Part shown: positions 24,485 through 61,477 of the stretch, one piece after another
Position numbering within the stretch: position 1 is the first letter of the stretch
How the letters are laid out: every line of letters starts with the position of its first letter
From: Dacryopinax spathularia
Lineage: Eukaryota > Basidiomycota > Dacrymycetes > Dacrymycetales > Dacrymycetaceae
Assembly (NCBI GenBank): GCA_037974965.1
Contig: JBBPFI010000006.1
Span: 372,001-436,000 of the forward strand
Direction of reading: 5' to 3'
DNA length: 64,000 nucleotides
Made by a program: the position numbers and the translations under genes
The notes under the pieces: model-generated
What the model saw: only the letters and a program-made list of their open reading frames with translations
The model's database searches: none
What the model was told of the DNA's origin: nothing

Positions 24485-25674
24485 CTACCACTGGATCTGA
24501 TCCAGAGCGTCCTCCAGCGCATGCTCAGCACCATCCAGAGCAAGTTTTCCTGTAGGTCGCGTCAGTTTCGGATTAGAAGAAAAAAGAAGAGAGCTCACCG
24601 CCGAACTTAGCAAACTTGGGCCCATACTTGGCCAAGAACTTCTTCGTGGCGGCCGCGATCTTCTCCTTCTTTTTGGAGCCATCGTTGACCGGCGTTGACG
24701 TGCTCGCCGACGTGCTGGCCGGCGTGCTGGCCTCGTCCTGGAAAGGATCGGGGAGAGGGAGATCGACCCCGTTCTCGTCCACCGAGAGCTTGCCACGCTC
24801 GACCCAGGCCTCCCAAGTCGCGTCGTGCTCCGCCTGACGCTGGCGACGAAGCTCGGCGAGCTTCCGGGCCTTCTCCGCGTGAATCTCCTTCTTGCGGAGG
24901 ACTTTACCGTACTGGTACGCAGGATCCCTGATCCTGCGCAGCTCCGCCTGATACTCCTCCGGGAAGAGTATCTCCAGCTGCCACTCCGGCTCCCGCTCCG
25001 CCAAGAAGTCGTCGAGCTCGACTTCATCCCCATCGAGGAGACCAGCAGGGAGAGAACGGCGGGGTTGCGTCTCCTCCGTAGCAGGAGCGACCTGCTGGGC
25101 GACTGTGCCCAAGTCTTCAGGCCTGGCGGAGGCCACTTCCGGCTCCTCGTCGGTGTCCTGAAGATGAGTCAGTGAAAACTCATAGTGTGCCGAACCTGTC
25201 GGCACAACTACACTACTTATCAATGTAGTTGTGCCCACAACCAGTCGGCACAACTACACTACTCACCTGAGGGACACCCTCACTCTCCATGACCGCCACC
25301 AGCGATCTCCCGGCGATGAGGGCCGGCGCATGCATCTGCCGCTCCACACTGCGGACAGCGGCGATGATGGCCGCCTTCAGCCTGGGATCCATCCCATCCC
25401 ACTCCTCCTGCTCTCCTACACCTCCAGCGGCTCCCCGTCCCTCCCCCACGTCTTCCTCCGGCGCATACACTTGCCTATTCGCGCCCTCATCGACCCCCGG
25501 CACTCCCGATGAAGTATTCGCCCCCCTGCCAGACTTGCGCACGGGGGGATGGTTGTCGAGGGCGAGCTTGACGTCGCCGTGCACCTCGTGGTGCGGATCG
25601 AGAGCGGGCAGGGATAAAGCAGATTTAAAAGAAACAGGAGTAGACGGCGTAGAGACGCCGTCCGTGTCGTTCAT
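24485..25674 (-). CDS. Unrecognised protein in the accessory island (343 aa)
   Basis: Three exons (25674-25267, 25157-24599, 24549-24485) join in phase to 343 residues. I do not recognise the family. The N-terminal third is polar, with one likely helix (DPRLKAAIIAAVRSVERQMH). The middle holds an acidic stretch (DEVELDDFLAEREPEWQLEI) and a basic, probably coiled-coil helix (EIHAEKARKLAELRRQRQAE) around residues 210-245. A Ser/Thr/Ala linker leads to a Lys-rich helical end (KKFLAKYGPKFAKFGGKLAL). No zinc ligands, signal peptide or membrane segment are seen. The 109-nt first intron consists almost wholly of the dispersed 20-nt repeat. It is transcribed toward the KDZ gene. Confidence 0.65.
25158..25266 (-). 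repeat. Repeat-built intron: two direct and one inverted copy of the 20-nt motif
   Basis: On the coding strand this intron starts GTGAGTAGTGTAGTTGTGCC, so the repeat itself supplies the splice donor. A second direct copy follows at 25219-25196, and a partial inverted copy (plus strand TGTAGTTGTGCCCA, 25224-25237) lies between them, allowing a stem-loop. GTGCCGAACCTGTCGGCAC at 25187-25205 forms another small stem. Confidence 0.8.
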
Positions 25675-51005: not shown

Positions 51006-52205
51006 GTCTTTGGATAGGGCGGAGGGCATGATGAAGAGATATGAATAGATTGAATACCCATTTTTTGCTCTCCTGGCGGATGTTACTCTTACAGAGACTA
51101 TGCAACGCTACTGTCACAAGGTTTGCTTGCTTGCTTTCGCCGCCCGGTGCTATTGCCTGCAGTACGGATCCTCGCTCCTCGTGGGAGCAGCCCGCCCGTT
51201 GATGAAGGCAGTGCGAGACGTCATCCCCGCAAGTCCGGTCCAGTACGAACCTGACGCTCGCGAAGAGGCTCAGGTGCTAGCCGATCAAGCATCACAGATC
51301 TTCGTTGCGTTCAGCCTCATGTCTAACTCGCATCACCAGCGGTTCGTGAGTGTAAAGGCGACAAAGTGACAAAGCGATCTCTTCACCAACCCAATGTGAG
51401 CAAATCCACGGATCTTCTCTCTCAGATGAGCATCCGAGCCGGCCATGAAGCTCAGAAAGGGATATACATCATACGATCCCCTTCTCTGAATCCAGCCTCG
51501 GCCGAGCATCCCGGACTTCCGTACGAGTACGGGCGGCGGGTCAATGTTATTTTCTGCGCTCGTCACCATCAGGCATCACCAGCCCGCATCTGATTACTAT
51601 TCTGGGCCGTGTCCCGCGCCCCGAGTTCTGGAGACTTCTTTCGCTGGATCGTCACGTGCTTTATATAGAACGTCGTGCGCCGCAGAAACAAAGCCGGGAG
51701 ATCATGCTTTCTTGGGTGAAGAGGATGAATGGGATGGTGCGATTGTTTACAAGGTTGGTGGATGTGTTGACGACCCCGCACGGTCGTTATGCGCAACCGC
51801 CGGCCGGAGAGGTGCTGCCGACCGGCACGGGAAGGTTGTGACACGTCCGGCGCGAGTCAGAATTTAAACGGCGCAGGGGTCTTCTCGCCCACGTTCTTCG
51901 TCCGAAAATTCATCCGGGCGGTGTGATGGGCGCTGATCGGCTAAGACAGTGATTTAGGGCCGGCTCATCGCTCCAAGGCGTTTACACGGCACGGCACGGC
52001 GACTGACTGATAAGAACCATCCGCTGAGAGACACGACTCCGCCTCTCAGGTCTTGCCCATTTGCACGTCCTCGCTATCATTGTTTGCTCACACCACACAC
52101 CACACACACTCGCTCGTCGTCGACCATCACTACTTCGCTCGCTCTTATCCACCGCAAACGCATATCGCAGTAGCGCCCTCATCACCCCAGCGAAGTTGGC
52201 TAGCC
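51006..52205. other. Long intergenic/5' region upstream of antizyme
   Basis: About 1.2 kb lie between the decarboxylase and the antizyme start. No gene was recognised. The last 200 bp are pyrimidine-rich with ACACCACACACC-type runs and probably form promoter and 5' UTR. Confidence 0.4.
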
Positions 52206-53379
52206 ATGTCGATCAGTACCAATATAAATTCCAAACAACACTTTAGTATCTGCCCCACGTAAGCAATCCATCCCATCCCATCCACCCTTATTATGCGTCG
52301 TACTGACTTCGAAATGATAGCGACGCTGTTCGCGGCAGCGTCGGAGATGGGGCTCCTTCCTATGCAAGCGATACTACGCCCGCCGCACTCGCGGTAGCCA
52401 AGCTCGAGGGAGCCCCTGGCAACATCTACTATTACTCCACTACCTTCAGCGGAGGCCCGGGGGTACGTTCTCCATTCCCTTCCTTACCGCATATAGCGAG
52501 CGAGCCCACTGCCACTGGGGACCAGGCGGTCGGGTGCTCCTCCCCGCGCCTGCGCGTGCCTGCGGCCCTGGTGGCAGTCCTCGTTACGCCATGCTTCGTT
52601 ATGAGCGCTTGTAGCTGACATCCGTTATCTGTAGTGGCGTTTTTGACGCCCCCAAGGAGAAATGCCCGCCGGACATACGTTCCGGCGGGTCGTCTGGCTG
52701 TGTGACAGGCAGCCAGGCGTCGGCATATACCCGGGCATCGGCAGGCTCAGGACCAGGCCCGATCAACGCTTTCGGCCTGCCCTCCCCGCCATCGCCCTCC
52801 CCTCCCAGCTACTTCCCACCCCCCACCAAGGCACCGCTCAAGCATGCAGTGCCCGTACAGATCCCCAAGCCCCGCGCCGCGCCGCTCCCTTCGCCGCCTA
52901 AGACACCCAGCCCTGTGGCGACGCGCAACCCGCTTCAGAGCCGCTCTCAGGTGCTGGAGTTCCTCGCCAAGGTCTTTCCCCGCTCGGCGGTGTCACTCCT
53001 CCCGCATGCGAGGGGGGTGAATATCACGAGCTACATGGATGGCCAGCGTGGCGATTGGGACGGTGCAGTGCTCGCGCTCCCTGGAAAGGAGCGCGCTCTG
53101 TACGTCGACGGTGCAGGTGTGGAGAATGTGCACCTGAAGGAATGGTACGTTGCTTTCCCTCGACATGATACTGATGACTGACCCTGTTGCAGCGTCGTCG
53201 CCCTCCTTGAATTGGCCGACGAGCATCTTCAGTGCACCTCCCTCGTCATCGCTCTCCGCAAGTCTTCTCCCGATCTGGGTGAGGTCCTGCATGCGATGAT
53301 GTACGTCGGTGGGAGTATCATGACCCGTCCTCCGTTCCCTATTTCCGAAGATCACATCCTCGTCGGGATCGAGCTGTAG
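52206..53379 (+). CDS. OAZ1: Ornithine decarboxylase antizyme (+1 frameshift gene)
   Basis: Four exons (52206-52258, 52321-52462, 52635-53144, 53193-53379). ORF0 (exons 1-2 and the first codons of exon 3) ends TGG CGT TTT TGA at 52644-52646. The +1 frame entered at GAC (52645) runs to TAG at 53377-53379. The +1 product has a Pro-rich linker, then the antizyme fold: VLEFLAKVFPRSAVSLLP, DGAVLALPGKERALYVD, LKECVVALLELADEHLQCTS and the end DLGEVLHAMMYVGGSIM. Antizyme binds ornithine decarboxylase monomers, sends them to the proteasome and blocks polyamine uptake. Synthesis is switched on by polyamine-stimulated +1 frameshifting, which matches what is seen. ORF0 is only 68 codons. The acceptor of intron 2 lies six bases before the TTT slip codon. 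Confidence 0.94.
52641..52647 (+). promoter_or_regulatory. Programmed +1 ribosomal frameshift site
   Basis: TTT TGA C: the ORF0 stop TGA follows a TTT codon, and reading from the G (GAC) continues as antizyme. UUU-UGA shift sites are known in some antizyme genes. Position relative to the conserved domain leaves little doubt. Confidence 0.9.
52665..52689 (+). promoter_or_regulatory. Stem-loop downstream of the frameshift site
   Basis: CCCGCCGGA (52665-52673) pairs perfectly with TCCGGCGGG (52681-52689) around a 7-nt loop, 18 nt after the ORF0 stop. Its position suits a 3' frameshift stimulator; that role is inferred. Confidence 0.65.
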
Positions 53380-53804
53380 ATCTTAGATCTCACGCGAAAT
53401 AGGGCAAGGCGGGCATCCCTTCCATAGTAGCTGGTTTCCCATCATTAACTTGTTCATTATCTCTTTCTTGAATATATCGTTTCTATGCTTCCTACCTATC
53501 TACAGTATCTGCTAGCTCGGCCACACGTTCATACATCTACTCCGGAGAACAAAGCCGGAACGTGCGCAACCATTGTCCGTCGTCCCTGAACAGGCCAGCC
53601 AGTAGGGGACAAGTAGTTTTGCCTCGCGCGGCGCCTCATCCTCACCCGATTTGCTTGCCCAATAATGGCTCCGTCAAGCTTGACGTCAATCGCAAACCGG
53701 GCAACAACGACCTGAACACTCCTACGATCGACTTGAGTAGGACCGCTGAGTACTGGTTCATTACTGTCAGGCTTGTAGCGACCAGCAGCTGCAGGAGGAA
53801 GAAG
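53380..53804. other. Intergenic region
   Basis: Antizyme 3' flank and upstream region of the Mdm31/32-type gene. No gene or repeat was recognised. Confidence 0.4.
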
Positions 53805-56800
53805 ATGTATGCGCTCCGATCTGAGCTGGGCGTGCTGCGTCACACAGCGGCAGCGGCAGCGTCGACTTCCCGTTCTCTCTCCGCTGAGTCAAGTCGGACG
53901 GCGGCAGCATGGGGAGGAATGAGTCGAAGTAGGACTCGGCCTGCCTCCAGGTACGTCCGTTCGCTTGCTTGTTTGTTTCGTTGACCGGGGGAGTTGATTA
54001 TGGCCAAACAGCAAAGAGAGCGTCCAGCGGTACACGACAATATTTTCCTTTTTCCGGTCTTTACATTCCTCTCCCTGCTCCTCAGCTCCGTCTACACCAT
54101 CCCACTCCCCCGTCTCCAGCTCAGCCTTACGAGCCTCGACATCCACCAACCCGCGGGCGACATTATCAAGCGCATACATCTCCCGCTCGCGGCCTGCACT
54201 GCCTTGTCCGGCAGGGTATGGGTCGTACTATGTGACAAGAGGGAAGAAGAAGAAAGCTAGAGCGGGGGCGCCGAGTTGGCTATATGACCTGCGGGAGTGG
54301 GAGCGGGAGTTGGAGTTGGAGTTCGAGGGAGATGGGGAGAAGGGGGAGAGAGAGGGGTATCATTCCACTCCTCCGAATGAGCCGAGGCCAGCTCGACCTT
54401 CGGGTGAGGATGGAGGCGAGGAGAAAATGGCAGTAAGGGTGAGGGGAGGAGAGGGTGGGGAAGAGGGCGGGGATGGACCTCCTGCGCCGGGGTCGGGGTC
54501 TGCGACGATGCCGGAGCGATCGGAGGAGCGAGCGGTGCATCTTCCACCGCCGGTCGCCCCGCCTCCGGTGCAGGCGTCGCTGTCCTTCGGCAGACCGACG
54601 GAGCAGGTTATACCAACGGCGTCGTCTGCTCCTTCGCTGCTTCGGTCGAGCGATACTATCCCCGCCTCCACCATTCCTGTCACGTCTGCAGGGCCCAGCT
54701 CGCAGATGACAATCCCGCAAACTCCCTCGACGATGTATCAACCGGCGCCGACAGCTACACGTGCTACGCCGGCGATCCCGCAGGCGTCGTCCTCGACGAC
54801 AGGTCCGGCGGCTGTAGCGCATATACCTCCCACTCAAGCACCTTACAGTCCAGCAAGTCATACACCACCCGTTTCGCTGCCTCGTGTACCTCCTGCTCAG
54901 CCCTCGCAGCTGCCTAAGCCGTCTTTTTCAGCTCAATCCCCTCCCGTCCAACCAGGTTCATCAGGAGCTTCACCAGAGGCTGCTCAAGCCTCTCCTACTC
55001 CGCCACGCCATGTACCTCCTGCTGAGCCCTCGCAGCCTTCGCAGCCTTCTTCAGCTCCCCCTCCTTTCAAGCAGCCAGCTTCATCAGGAGCTTCACCAGG
55101 GGCTGCTCGAGCACCTCTCACTCCGCCACCTCACATACCTCCCGCTCAGCCTTCACCGCCTTCGCGTCCTTCTTCAGCTCCTCCTACCGACCAACCGGCT
55201 TCACCAGGAGCTTCTCGAGAGGCTGCTCAAGTACCTCCCCCGCCGCCCAGCCATCCATTACCTTCCCCGCCTCCTCAAGAGCCTCCTGCTCAGCCCTCAC
55301 AGCCTTCGCAGTCTTCTTCAGCTCCTCCTACTCCTCCCGACCAGCCGGCTTCGCCTGGGGCACCACCCGAGCCTCCGAAAGGAGATCCACCGTACCTTCG
55401 CTTCTATCCTCGCCACCTACGACGTCTAGCTCGTTCGCTACCGTACATCCATATCCGTCCACCTTCGATCGATGATATCCTCAAAGTCACCACGGGGTTC
55501 TGGCAGCGCTTGTCCGTTCGGTTTCGCTGGCTCACTATCCGGAGCTTCCGGCGATTCACGGCAGAAGAATACGGCACGTTCTTGGGCTGGTTCGTCCTAA
55601 GCCAGACGGTTTGGTTGCTCCTAGGAACGACGACATTCGTTGGAGCGATCGTCCTTACCCTCAATAGCTTACGGCTGCAACACTACGTTGCCGGAGTGAT
55701 CAGCAAGTACTTGACCTCCGAAACGGGCTGGGACATCGCCTATGAATCTGCTACAGTACCAAGATGGAGAGACGCCACGATCTCGTTCAAGAACGTCTAT
55801 GTCTCGCAGAAGCCGAAGACGTATACAGCTACAAACGAGGATGGGACGACTGAGGAGCGGGCGAGCTATATGACCGTCAACCTCGATATCGATTCGATCG
55901 ACGTGACGCTCAGCCTGTGGAGGTGGTTAGACGGGAAAGGATTGGTCAAGAATGCGGTCGTCAAGGGCGTACGGGGCGTTATGGGTGAGTCACCATTTTC
56001 CGCGCATACTGCATATATGCTCATTTAGACCTAGATCGGCGTAACGTATACTGGGATCCCGATAAGGTCTACAACCCGGCCGACTTCCGTCATCAGCCCA
56101 CGCCGGGAGCGTTCGAGCTTGAATCACTCAGGATCGAGGATGCCCTCGTCACGGTCTACCAGACCCGGCGGTTCCGCCCGTTCTTCGTGTCGATCTTCAA
56201 GGCGGAAATTGGTCGGTTCCGGCGGCAGTGGATGTTCTACGATTTCATCTCGGCTGAGAGCATTGTTGGGCAGTTTGATAATTGCTTGTTCAGTGTGCAT
56301 AAGCCGCAGAGCGTGAGCCGGACGAGGGATGCTGCGATGAAGGAGGAGGGCTGGAAGCGATTGGTACGTTCCTTAGCAGAACGTACGCTTTCTGTGCTGA
56401 CCCGTCTGTAGTCCCGTCTGCGGATCGACGGCGTCAGCATCGACCACTTCAAGGCTACCCTTTCGTCAGAGACCGGCTTATGGTCCTGGATCCAATCAGG
56501 CAAAGTTGACGCCGTGCTCGATATTCGTTTCCCGACGCATCCTGACGACGATAACATCGATCTCGGCCAAATAATTAGCAACATCACCGCCGAGCTTGCA
56601 GAACAGCTTGATCGTCTGCCTGGCCAACGTGAACTTGCTCGACCGGCCTTAGAGGTTCCTGGGGATCTGGAAGAGTCTGAAACGGCCATCGCGGAGGATC
56701 TGCAGGGCGATGCGAAGCAGCGAAAGGTCGAGATCGACATCGACCTTCGGTTCAGGGATCTGAAGGCGGCCGTGCCGATCTTCACGAACGAGCTGAGTTA

Positions 56801-58081: not shown

Positions 58082-59242
58082 ATGGACGAACGCTGGAACC
58101 GGGACGACATCGAGCGGCTCCTGGTCGACGCCTTCCGGCCTGGCGGACTCATCTGCCAGTGGGTCCATACGGATGTCGACCCGCGGATGGACAAGCTGAT
58201 CCGCCGGAACTGTGGCCGTCTATATCAGACCGGAGCGCTATTGCTGAAGGTGCGCTGGTTCCTCTTGTCGGACTAGGACAACCTGTGCTAACTGGTCTCC
58301 TAGCACGTCCGGGTTGCCCACTGCCAGCCAGCTCCGGCCTCGGACAGCAAGCAGCATGGCACGGCCTCCCGGCCCGCCAAACGCTTCCGGTGCTGCTGGC
58401 CAAGGTGTCCGGGCGCCAAGTTTGCGACACCGGATGAGCTGTATGAGCATGTCAGGGATGCACACATCTCTCGACTGCTCTACAGGCTGTGTCCTTACGA
58501 GGAGTGCCCGGCTCAGCCTTCCAGCCTGATCCGGGCGGTTGCCCATCTCCGGGAGCACCTGCAATCCGGCTGGCCTGAGCCAACTCCCCACCTGATCCCC
58601 CTCTCCTTTCTTTCCCCACCTCCTTCCCTTCCAACCCACCCAGTTCCCCTATGGGATCTGGAGGTCCATGTGCGGCTGCCCCAGCGCACATTCCAGCAGC
58701 CGCTGGCACTAGTCAACCAGCCGTTGGCTGCGGTTGACAGTGAGCCAGACACTGCTGAAGACAACTCCGCCTCGGACGAAACAGGTTGCCAGGCTCACCC
58801 AGCCTCGGACAACCCTAACCAGCCAATGCTGGTTCGGCCTCATCCAGCACGCCCCGGCCCATCCCACCTTCAACTTGGCCTTCCCCAGCGTCCACCTACT
58901 CCAAGCCTTCAAGCCCAGCCTGTCCTGCCGGTCCGCTTCTTCCAGCCTCAAGTCGGCTGGGACGCGCGCTCTGCTGCGTCAAACGACAACCCGCCCGGCA
59001 GCAGCGCTCAGCCCGGGTCACCCGGGTCAGCCGGGTCAGCCGGGTCGTCCGGGTTGCCCGCCGCCCATCCGTCGAGGGACAAGGGCAAAGGCAAGGAGAG
59101 CGCACCTACGGATGGCCCAGTCCGACCCACCGACAGCAATCGGCGACCTCGACTTCCCGGCGAACGCGAACGCGAACGACAGCAGTACTGGCCTGGACCG
59201 TCCGGACTCGGCAGCGACGTCCGCCCCGGAACGTCGTCCTAA
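58082..59242 (+). CDS. Zinc-finger (C2H2-like) protein of unknown function
   Basis: Two exons (58082-58249 and 58304-59242) join in phase to 368 residues. The N-terminus (MDERWNRDDIERLLVDAFRP, GGLICQWVHTDVDPRMDKLI) looks globular. Two C2H2-like fingers follow at about residues 80-140: RCCWPRCPGAKFATPDELYE with HVRDAH, and LCPYEECPAQPSSLIRAVAH with LREH. The rest is Pro/Ser/Gln-rich and likely disordered, with a short Gly-Ser tract (PGSPGSAGSAGSSG) from a CCGGGT-type DNA repeat near 59016-59060, then a basic end. Paired fingers of this spacing occur in fungal DNA-binding and chromatin-associated proteins, but I cannot name the family. The start Met lies near the first in-frame ATG after a pyrimidine-rich leader. 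Confidence 0.7.
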
Positions 59243-61477
59243 CCCGCCAGCCCCTAACCCAACCGCTCACTGGGCAAGAAGCACGCTCGCTTCCAGTGTC
59301 GCATCGAACGAGCCTACAACGTACATACCGTACATAGGACGACAATACCCAATAACCCGCTTTCAACCCTAACCCAGTAGATACAAAGAGGCGAGCAGGC
59401 AACGCCTCAACCCCCAACAAAATCAATTACCAAGACGCCATCGGCATCCCCGCGTTCATCACTCAGCGCAAATCAAATCAACTACCAAGAAGAACAGCCC
59501 GGCATAAAGCAAGAAAAGAACAAAAACAATCAACACACTATCGCCTTTCTTTTATTTCGGCATGGACATTTTCTACGAGGGGGTCAGTCTCAAATATAGG
59601 CGCGCTCAGGGAGAGTGATTGGGAGGTGCGGAGAGCATCGAGAGCGGCATCGACATGCTCAAGGCCTGCACTCTGTCCTATGATAGGTTGACAAGAAAGG
59701 AGGACCGGAGCGATACGGGTTACTCCTGCAAGCTTCGACCAGTGTCCGATGACGAGAAGAGTACATTCCCTCCGAGACAAGCAGGCACGCTCCCGTGCCT
59801 ACTCTCGGAGGGGATCTCATCTCCCATTGCAAGCAACACGTCTGCCAAACTCAACCTCTCACATTTCAAGTCTCCACTGTCGACCTGCTATGACCCCGCT
59901 TCTCCCAACGGCTTCTCTCTTCCGATTACAAGCAGCTAAGGCACGAGGATCTCGCCGTCATCCATTACACAAGACCAGGCCAAACTACGCTTTGGCCATC
60001 ACTTCATCAGCCTTTTTCAGTGCCCTGAGCACCCAGACGAAGGCCGGAGCGTCCGAAACGTCTGTCCTTCCGCTGCCTCACGAGCCTCCGGAGCTCTCTC
60101 AATAAATCAGGCCACCCACATGAGTCTGTCATCATCCCAATCGTCTCTTTCATATCACCGCTCTCAAGATGTCTCTCTCTCTTACGGGCGATGAATTTTC
60201 TGCGATCGAGCTTCAACCTCCATGAATGGCTGCCAAGATCGATCGACCTCAACATGCTGGGACATTTCACTGCACCAGGCGACAAGAAGATCAACACCAC
60301 CAGCGTTCGCCTGAAGGACCATGCGACTCACAGGTTCGGCATGTGCACAAACACCCAACGGCTGGTTCCCGGCCCCGTCTTCTGTCTCCCGTCTCCCTCT
60401 TAACCATCTTCGGGTGCATCAATCAAGTCTGTCACTCAACCGATCATTCTCCATTTCGGGTTTCCCATCAAGCGCTCAAGAAGATCAAGAAGTACGTCAT
60501 GGCATTCTTGATCGTCCATTTCAAGCACATGTCAGTTTCGGCAAATTCATTGATTTCACACGATTTCACCGATTTCGCCGATTTGCCAATCTTGCCGATT
60601 TCCTGTCTCATTGATGTCTCTCTTTCTTTCTTTCTTTCTCTCTCTCTCTCTCTCCCCCTCTCCCTCTCTTTTTCTCTCTCGCTACAATCTCCCACAACCA
60701 GGCCTAAGCTCCCAAGCTAAAGCTGCCTGGTTGCCGTCCGCCACCCAGCTGCATTCATAAGAGAAGTAGCCGTTCGGCCAGACAACCCTATCACACAAAC
60801 CCACAACCAACCTAACCCTGACCTCACCCCGCACCAGCGCTCACTGCTTCGGTGTGGGATACAACATCAACATCATCCACACTCCTTTTTTCCCATCTGT
60901 CTGTCTGTCTTTTCTGTTCAGTGTTTACTTCCAGCTAGTCTTAGTGTCCTAGTTTGACATGATGTTCACAATCCATTTATTCATTGCTGCTGCTTCCGCA
61001 GAGAAATTGGTGTGCCGGAATGATCAGTAGGAGCAGGAATATGAGGAATATGAGCTCTGCATTTAATGCATAGGGGGGGTGAATTATTTTCGGCAACTCT
61101 TGAGGATTGAAAAAGGGTGTTCGATTTGACTTGGAAGACTAGATAAGCGCGAGCGAGATTGCGGAAGGGAAAAGGGAGGTTAATAGGGGGTTGATTAGGC
61201 TTGTTCGATGTAAGATTATCGAACGCGGAGGGGAGGAACGGCAAGATTGTCTTAGTTTGGCCTTAGCGTTGACCTTAGATGTGCGAACGGCACTGTGTGC
61301 AGTATGAGGAGTGCTCTGGCCCAGCTGTCCAGCCTGTGAGTAGGCCTCAGCGCAGTGTTCGAGTACCCTGCAGGGGGAGCGATCCAGTCCAGATCAAAAT
61401 TCGGTTTATGATTCTATGGGTTCATGATATTCGTCGGTATGCTACAGCTGAGATTGTCTCTATTCCGGGCGATCGAA
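59243..61477. other. Large gene-poor stretch with CT microsatellite
   Basis: About 2.2 kb between the zinc-finger gene and the convergent Mpv17/Sym1 gene, the longest gap in the right half. Open frames are short and unrelated to any family I know. A CTTT/CT microsatellite lies near 60615-60680. No RNA gene was recognised. Confidence 0.4.
60615..60682. repeat. CTTT/CT microsatellite
   Basis: Tandem CTTT units pass into (CT)n and CCCT runs. It is intergenic. Confidence 0.9.

Follow-up and report, generated by a model that had tools for sequence, protein, structure and literature searches.

A predicted +1 frameshift signal set of the Basidiomycota type in an antizyme gene of Dacryopinax spathularia

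Antizyme keeps polyamine levels in check. A stretch of 64,000 nucleotides of the Dacryopinax spathularia genome (positions 372001–436000 of contig 6; the genome comprises 29.2 Mb in 24 contigs), referred to in the following as the window, contains a gene in which the stop codon of a short upstream frame, in the context TTT TGA C, is followed by a perfect hairpin. The original prediction read this as the +1 frameshift site of an antizyme gene and suggested that the simple hairpin may be a stimulator of separate origin. The locus raises the question of whether the gene encodes an antizyme, whether the hairpin is more than a chance product of the coding sequence, and whether it is specific to this lineage.

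Gene model, reading frames and domain

A four-exon model of the gene (52206–52258, 52321–52462, 52635–53144 and 53193–53379, all on the forward strand) was drawn from splice-site letters and reading frames only. The upstream frame, ORF0, starts with the ATG at 52206, is open through exon 1 (52206–52258) and crosses intron 1 (52259–52320), with GT–AG junctions, into exon 2 (52321–52462), which carries two Ala-Val dipeptides (DAVRG and LAVAK). Intron 2 (52463–52634), 172 nt in length and reading GTACGT...CTGTAG, falls on the boundary between codons −4 and −3. The predicted ORF0 product has 68 amino acids (MSIST...YYYSTTFSGGPGWRF). ORF1, in the +1 frame, encodes 228 amino acids, of which the first part lies in exon 3 (52645–53144) and the remainder, after intron 3 (53145–53192), in the last exon (53193–53379), ending in a TAG stop. 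In this exon model, ORF0 and ORF1 joined by a +1 shift give a predicted protein of 296 amino acids. The frames fit a +1 shift at the UGA stop, the shift event itself being predicted.

When ORF1 was compared with Pfam, residues 147–214 matched the ODC_AZ domain (PF02100) with an E-value of 9.9e-11 and 42 bits, against a cut-off of 24.2. Residues were converted to coordinates by hand, placing the domain at 53083–53334, where it is interrupted by intron 3. This gene gave the only ODC_AZ match found genome-wide. Four matches to ORF1 at E ≤1 were obtained from the PDB, all of them antizymes and all weak (E 0.087–0.32). The sequence fits the proposed antizyme +1 frameshift site, with an ODC_AZ domain in the +1 frame that scores above the Pfam cut-off. 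We regard it as nearly certain that the locus encodes the ornithine decarboxylase antizyme of a basidiomycete of the Agaricomycete type and carries the +1 frameshift signals described in the literature as a set.

The next long open frame 3' of the antizyme gene (54232–56028) matches MDM31_MDM32 (PF08118, E 2.3e-56), and the match is preceded by a long Pro/Ser-rich N-terminal part.

Upstream signals, introns and alternative splicing

The shift site, TGG CGT TTT TGA C (52635–52647), consists of the remainder of module A (52635–52640), the shift codon TTT (52641–52643) and the ORF0 stop TGA (52644–52646). Module A itself, G UGG CGU adjoining UUU, corresponds to base 52462 plus 52635–52640. Further upstream, codons −15 to −5 (52427–52459) encode YYYSTTFSGGP, a nascent-peptide signal of the Agaricomycete type, and ORF0 contains GGG, UGG and CGU codons and the AV dipeptide, the latter twice. 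A 5' stem is predicted between 52252–52258 and exon 2 bases 52321–52353, with intron 1 in between (52252–52353 in all). In the spliced mRNA it has 17 predicted pairs and a stability of −30.3 kcal/mol, which was matched in none of 2000 synonymous draws, with 115 nt between its end and the shift codon TTT.

These elements have counterparts in the system described for Basidiomycota, with Coprinopsis cinerea as the model. The 5' signals in PMC4505036 are module A, an Ala-Val dipeptide, an 11-residue nascent peptide encoded by codons −15 to −5, and a 5' stem, placed in the first half of ORF1, whose 14 pairs have a predicted stability of at least 30 kcal/mol. All of these are common to the C. cinerea system and the present gene (PMC4505036); the predicted 5' stem reaches the stability given for Agaricomycete antizymes, has 17 pairs against the published 14, and lies 115 nt from the shift codon compared with 106 nt stated for C. 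cinerea (PMC4505036). SGGP likewise occupies codons −8 to −5 before the shift site in C. cinerea (PMC5009743). The Ganoderma lucidum antizyme, GlAZ, resembles the present gene in having YYYSTTFSGG, the AV dipeptide, a TTTGA shift sequence and a single gene copy (PMC9604110); its short product has 66 amino acids versus 68 here, and its full-length antizyme 333 versus 296 (PMC9604110). The word "stem" does not occur in that paper (PMC9604110).

In the exon model, intron 1 interrupts the 5' stem, whose inner part lies wholly in exon 2 and would be able to fold unspliced, and intron 2 falls inside module A, of which only the initial base (52462) lies in exon 2. Both signals would consequently be complete only in the spliced mRNA. 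Within the gene model, the splitting of the 5' stem and of module A by introns is the new detail here; neither "intron" nor "splic" occurs in the text of PMC4505036. For gene prediction, the placement of the introns could be of consequence: during annotation, the frameshift might be mistaken for an error of splicing or of sequencing. Splicing and frameshifting might even be coupled, such that correct splicing is needed to complete the recoding signals and use of another acceptor (e.g., 52614) yields antizyme with no frameshift, a polyamine-independent bypass of the sensor, but we consider this very unlikely.

A related possibility is that alternative splicing of intron 2 gives access to the antizyme frame, either instead of or besides frameshifting. 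A scan of 52560–52659 covered six AGs, three of which (ends 52614, 52656 and 52659) would, when joined to the donor at 52463, lead to proteins of 288–303 amino acids in the antizyme frame. However, chance alone should put roughly one AG in three in frame, and the splicing bypass was accordingly given little weight. With 52467, the other GT considered, as donor, none of the six AGs reaches the antizyme frame; an mRNA that retains intron 2 encodes a 116-amino-acid product that lacks the domain; and the junction at 52634 rebuilds the published UGG CGU UUU UGA context. CTGAC at 52615–52619 resembles a branch-point motif that would serve the 52634 acceptor. Alternative splicing as the route to the antizyme frame is very unlikely, and we retain frameshifting at the UUU-UGA site as the preferred reading.

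Two abutting stem-loops 3' of the shift site

The arms of the hairpin, CCCGCCGGA (52665–52673) and TCCGGCGGG (52681–52689), enclose the loop CATACGT and begin 18 nt after the ORF0 stop. All the bases of the original description, from TTT TGA C through the 18-nt spacing to the perfect 9-bp stem and its 7-nt loop, are present as described; what it overlooked were an additional G–U pair (52664/52690), a second stem, the nascent peptide and module A. When 52660–52720 was folded, stem 1 (52664–52690) had 10 contiguous pairs, nine Watson–Crick and the outermost G–U, closing a 7-nt loop, a count that leaves out a lone pair within the loop. It starts 19 nt after UUU_U (52645–52663) and is adjoined by AAAU (52660–52663), which is unpaired in the fold. 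Stem 2 (52691–52719) has 11 contiguous pairs, two of them G–U, between 52691–52701 and 52709–52719, with the 7-nt loop GUGACAG (52702–52708), and directly abuts stem 1 with no unpaired bases in between. In the minimum-energy fold of a longer segment (52635–52740), both hairpins are kept, but the outer pairs of stem 1 are opened and AUGCC pairs with a downstream GGCAU, so that the two-stem form has a competitor.

The hairpin might be a product of chance in a GC-rich coding region and play no part in decoding. The pair of stem-1 arms occurs at a single place in the 29.2-Mb genome (both strands, loops of 3–12 nt). The window contains seven perfect stems of at least 9 bp with loops of 3–10 nt, stem 1 included, and a single 9-bp hairpin is thus uncommon but not extraordinary. 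When the same 26 codons over the two-stem region were redrawn synonymously 1000 times, the draws averaged −27.5 kcal/mol and none attained the minimum free energy of −42.5 kcal/mol (z −3.6); permutation of codons within the gene reached it in 2 of 1000 cases. Complete stem 1 (10 pairs) appeared in 81 of 5000 synonymous draws and complete stem 2 (11 pairs) in two, while no draw had both. Dinucleotide shuffles of 52635–52740 gave z −3.3, with one of 200 equally stable. The structure is not explained by codon choice, and the 3' element is shown here as a predicted two-stem structure that exceeds synonymous chance.

Fold energy alone does not make the two-stem element unique. Six of the 12,786 78-nt stretches on both strands of the 64-kb window fold at least as well: the element itself, two in intron 2 (52501–52588) and three on the other strand (25183–25260, 58983–59060 and 59753–59830). 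The five other equally stable stretches, like the seven perfect stems, are what a chance origin has in its favor; against it stand the synonymous draws and permutations and the match to a published, experimentally tested element (see below), and we give it almost no credence.

The fold predicted within intron 2 (52501–52588) is itself very stable, and 52501–52578, at −47.5 kcal/mol, ranks first among the 12,786 stretches.

Two DNA patterns, both loose, were used to search for further loci and gave at least 120 stretches in genome contigs and at least 120 in viral contigs. Among the 243 matches listed (120 + 120, and 3 from the same genome), only three, all of the same locus, had either an antizyme tblastn match (E ≤0.01) or the full architecture. 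The architecture filter was drawn from the window, which passes by construction, and it requires uninterrupted stems and would miss the published bulged variants of stem 2. In a protein search of viral contigs with the exon 3 part of ORF1, one stretch fit a pattern and none encoded a relative.

Relation to the published element and proposed mechanism

Antizyme mRNAs of Basidiomycota are described as having two stem-loops with no gap between them, the first of which begins 19 nt past the UUU-UGA shift site (PMC4505036, which credits its reference 36 for this 3' stimulator). In that source, AAAU adjoining stem 1 is invariant in the sequences that have the 3' structure, loop 2 has 7 nt with six invariant positions, and stem 2 has bulged variants; covariation is extensive in stem 2, whereas in stem 1 it is limited to a few cases within the Agaricomycetes and is numerous outside the Agaricomycotina (PMC4505036). 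UUU-UGA, the 19-nt spacing, AAAU, two abutting stem-loops and a 7-nt loop 2 are all common to this C. cinerea-type system and the present gene (PMC4505036). Loop 2 was compared by length only, the six invariant letters being given in a figure. As judged from its sequence, the hairpin makes up the first of the two stem-loops in a signal already described from mushroom-type fungi. Agaricomycetes share the 3' structure with published sequences of Ustilaginomycotina and Pucciniomycotina, and four Tremellomycetes sequences are reported without it (PMC4505036); it is not peculiar to D. spathularia.

A single-hairpin stimulator of separate origin in this lineage, for which a perfect 9-bp stem at a single genomic place would speak, is hardly credible given that stem 2 abuts, AAAU precedes, and spacing and loop-2 length equal those of the published Basidiomycota element. 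These features speak against a separate origin, and the idea of a simple-hairpin stimulator survives in part: the hairpin forms part of a 3' structure that differs from the animal pseudoknot and is stimulatory in C. cinerea, but it does not stand alone. Animal antizyme likewise has a 3' RNA stimulator of +1 frameshifting. Where present, it is a pseudoknot 3 nt past the shift site (PMC5009743), whereas here stem 1 of two plain stem-loops starts 19 nt after UUU_U, and no animal-type pseudoknot was found at about 3 nt. An Rfam search over 52000–53500 gave no family at E ≤1.

In C. cinerea reporters that lacked the 3' structure, frameshifting was 1.7–2-fold lower when measured in HEK293T cells, and in S. 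pombe the drop was 3.75-fold (PMC4505036). In HEK293T cells with DFMO and 50 µM spermidine, the values fell from 38 to 19.7% for the full-length construct and from 22 to 13% for a short one; in untreated cells they fell from 26 to 13%, and in S. pombe from 16.5 to 4.4% (PMC4505036). With DFMO and spermidine, deletion of the nascent peptide caused a 12-fold drop and complementing module A a 38-fold drop (PMC4505036). The smaller fold-changes show that, in C. cinerea, the 3' structure is a minor stimulator, weaker than the nascent peptide and module A. Stalling was absent in toe-printing experiments, and the 3' structure was placed just outside the mRNA tunnel (PMC4505036).

By homology with C. 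cinerea, from which we infer that the present gene undergoes the shift, what its individual elements do and how it responds to polyamines, UUU would occupy the P site at the moment of the shift, with UGA, the stop of ORF0, in the A site. YYYSTTFSGGP in the exit tunnel, together with module A (G UGG CGU), would favor a +1 slip to GAC over termination, producing the 296-amino-acid antizyme, and the stem-loops (52664–52719), just outside the mRNA entry tunnel, would add modest stimulation and polyamine sensitivity. High polyamine levels would then lead to more antizyme, lowering ornithine decarboxylase and polyamine uptake. The gene is an ordinary case: it extends a thoroughly described autoregulatory recoding system to a further genome and shows that the published signal set is recognizable from genomic sequence.

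The shift site also lies inside a short inverted repeat (GGCGTT TTT GACGCC, 52636–52650), which would melt within the ribosome.
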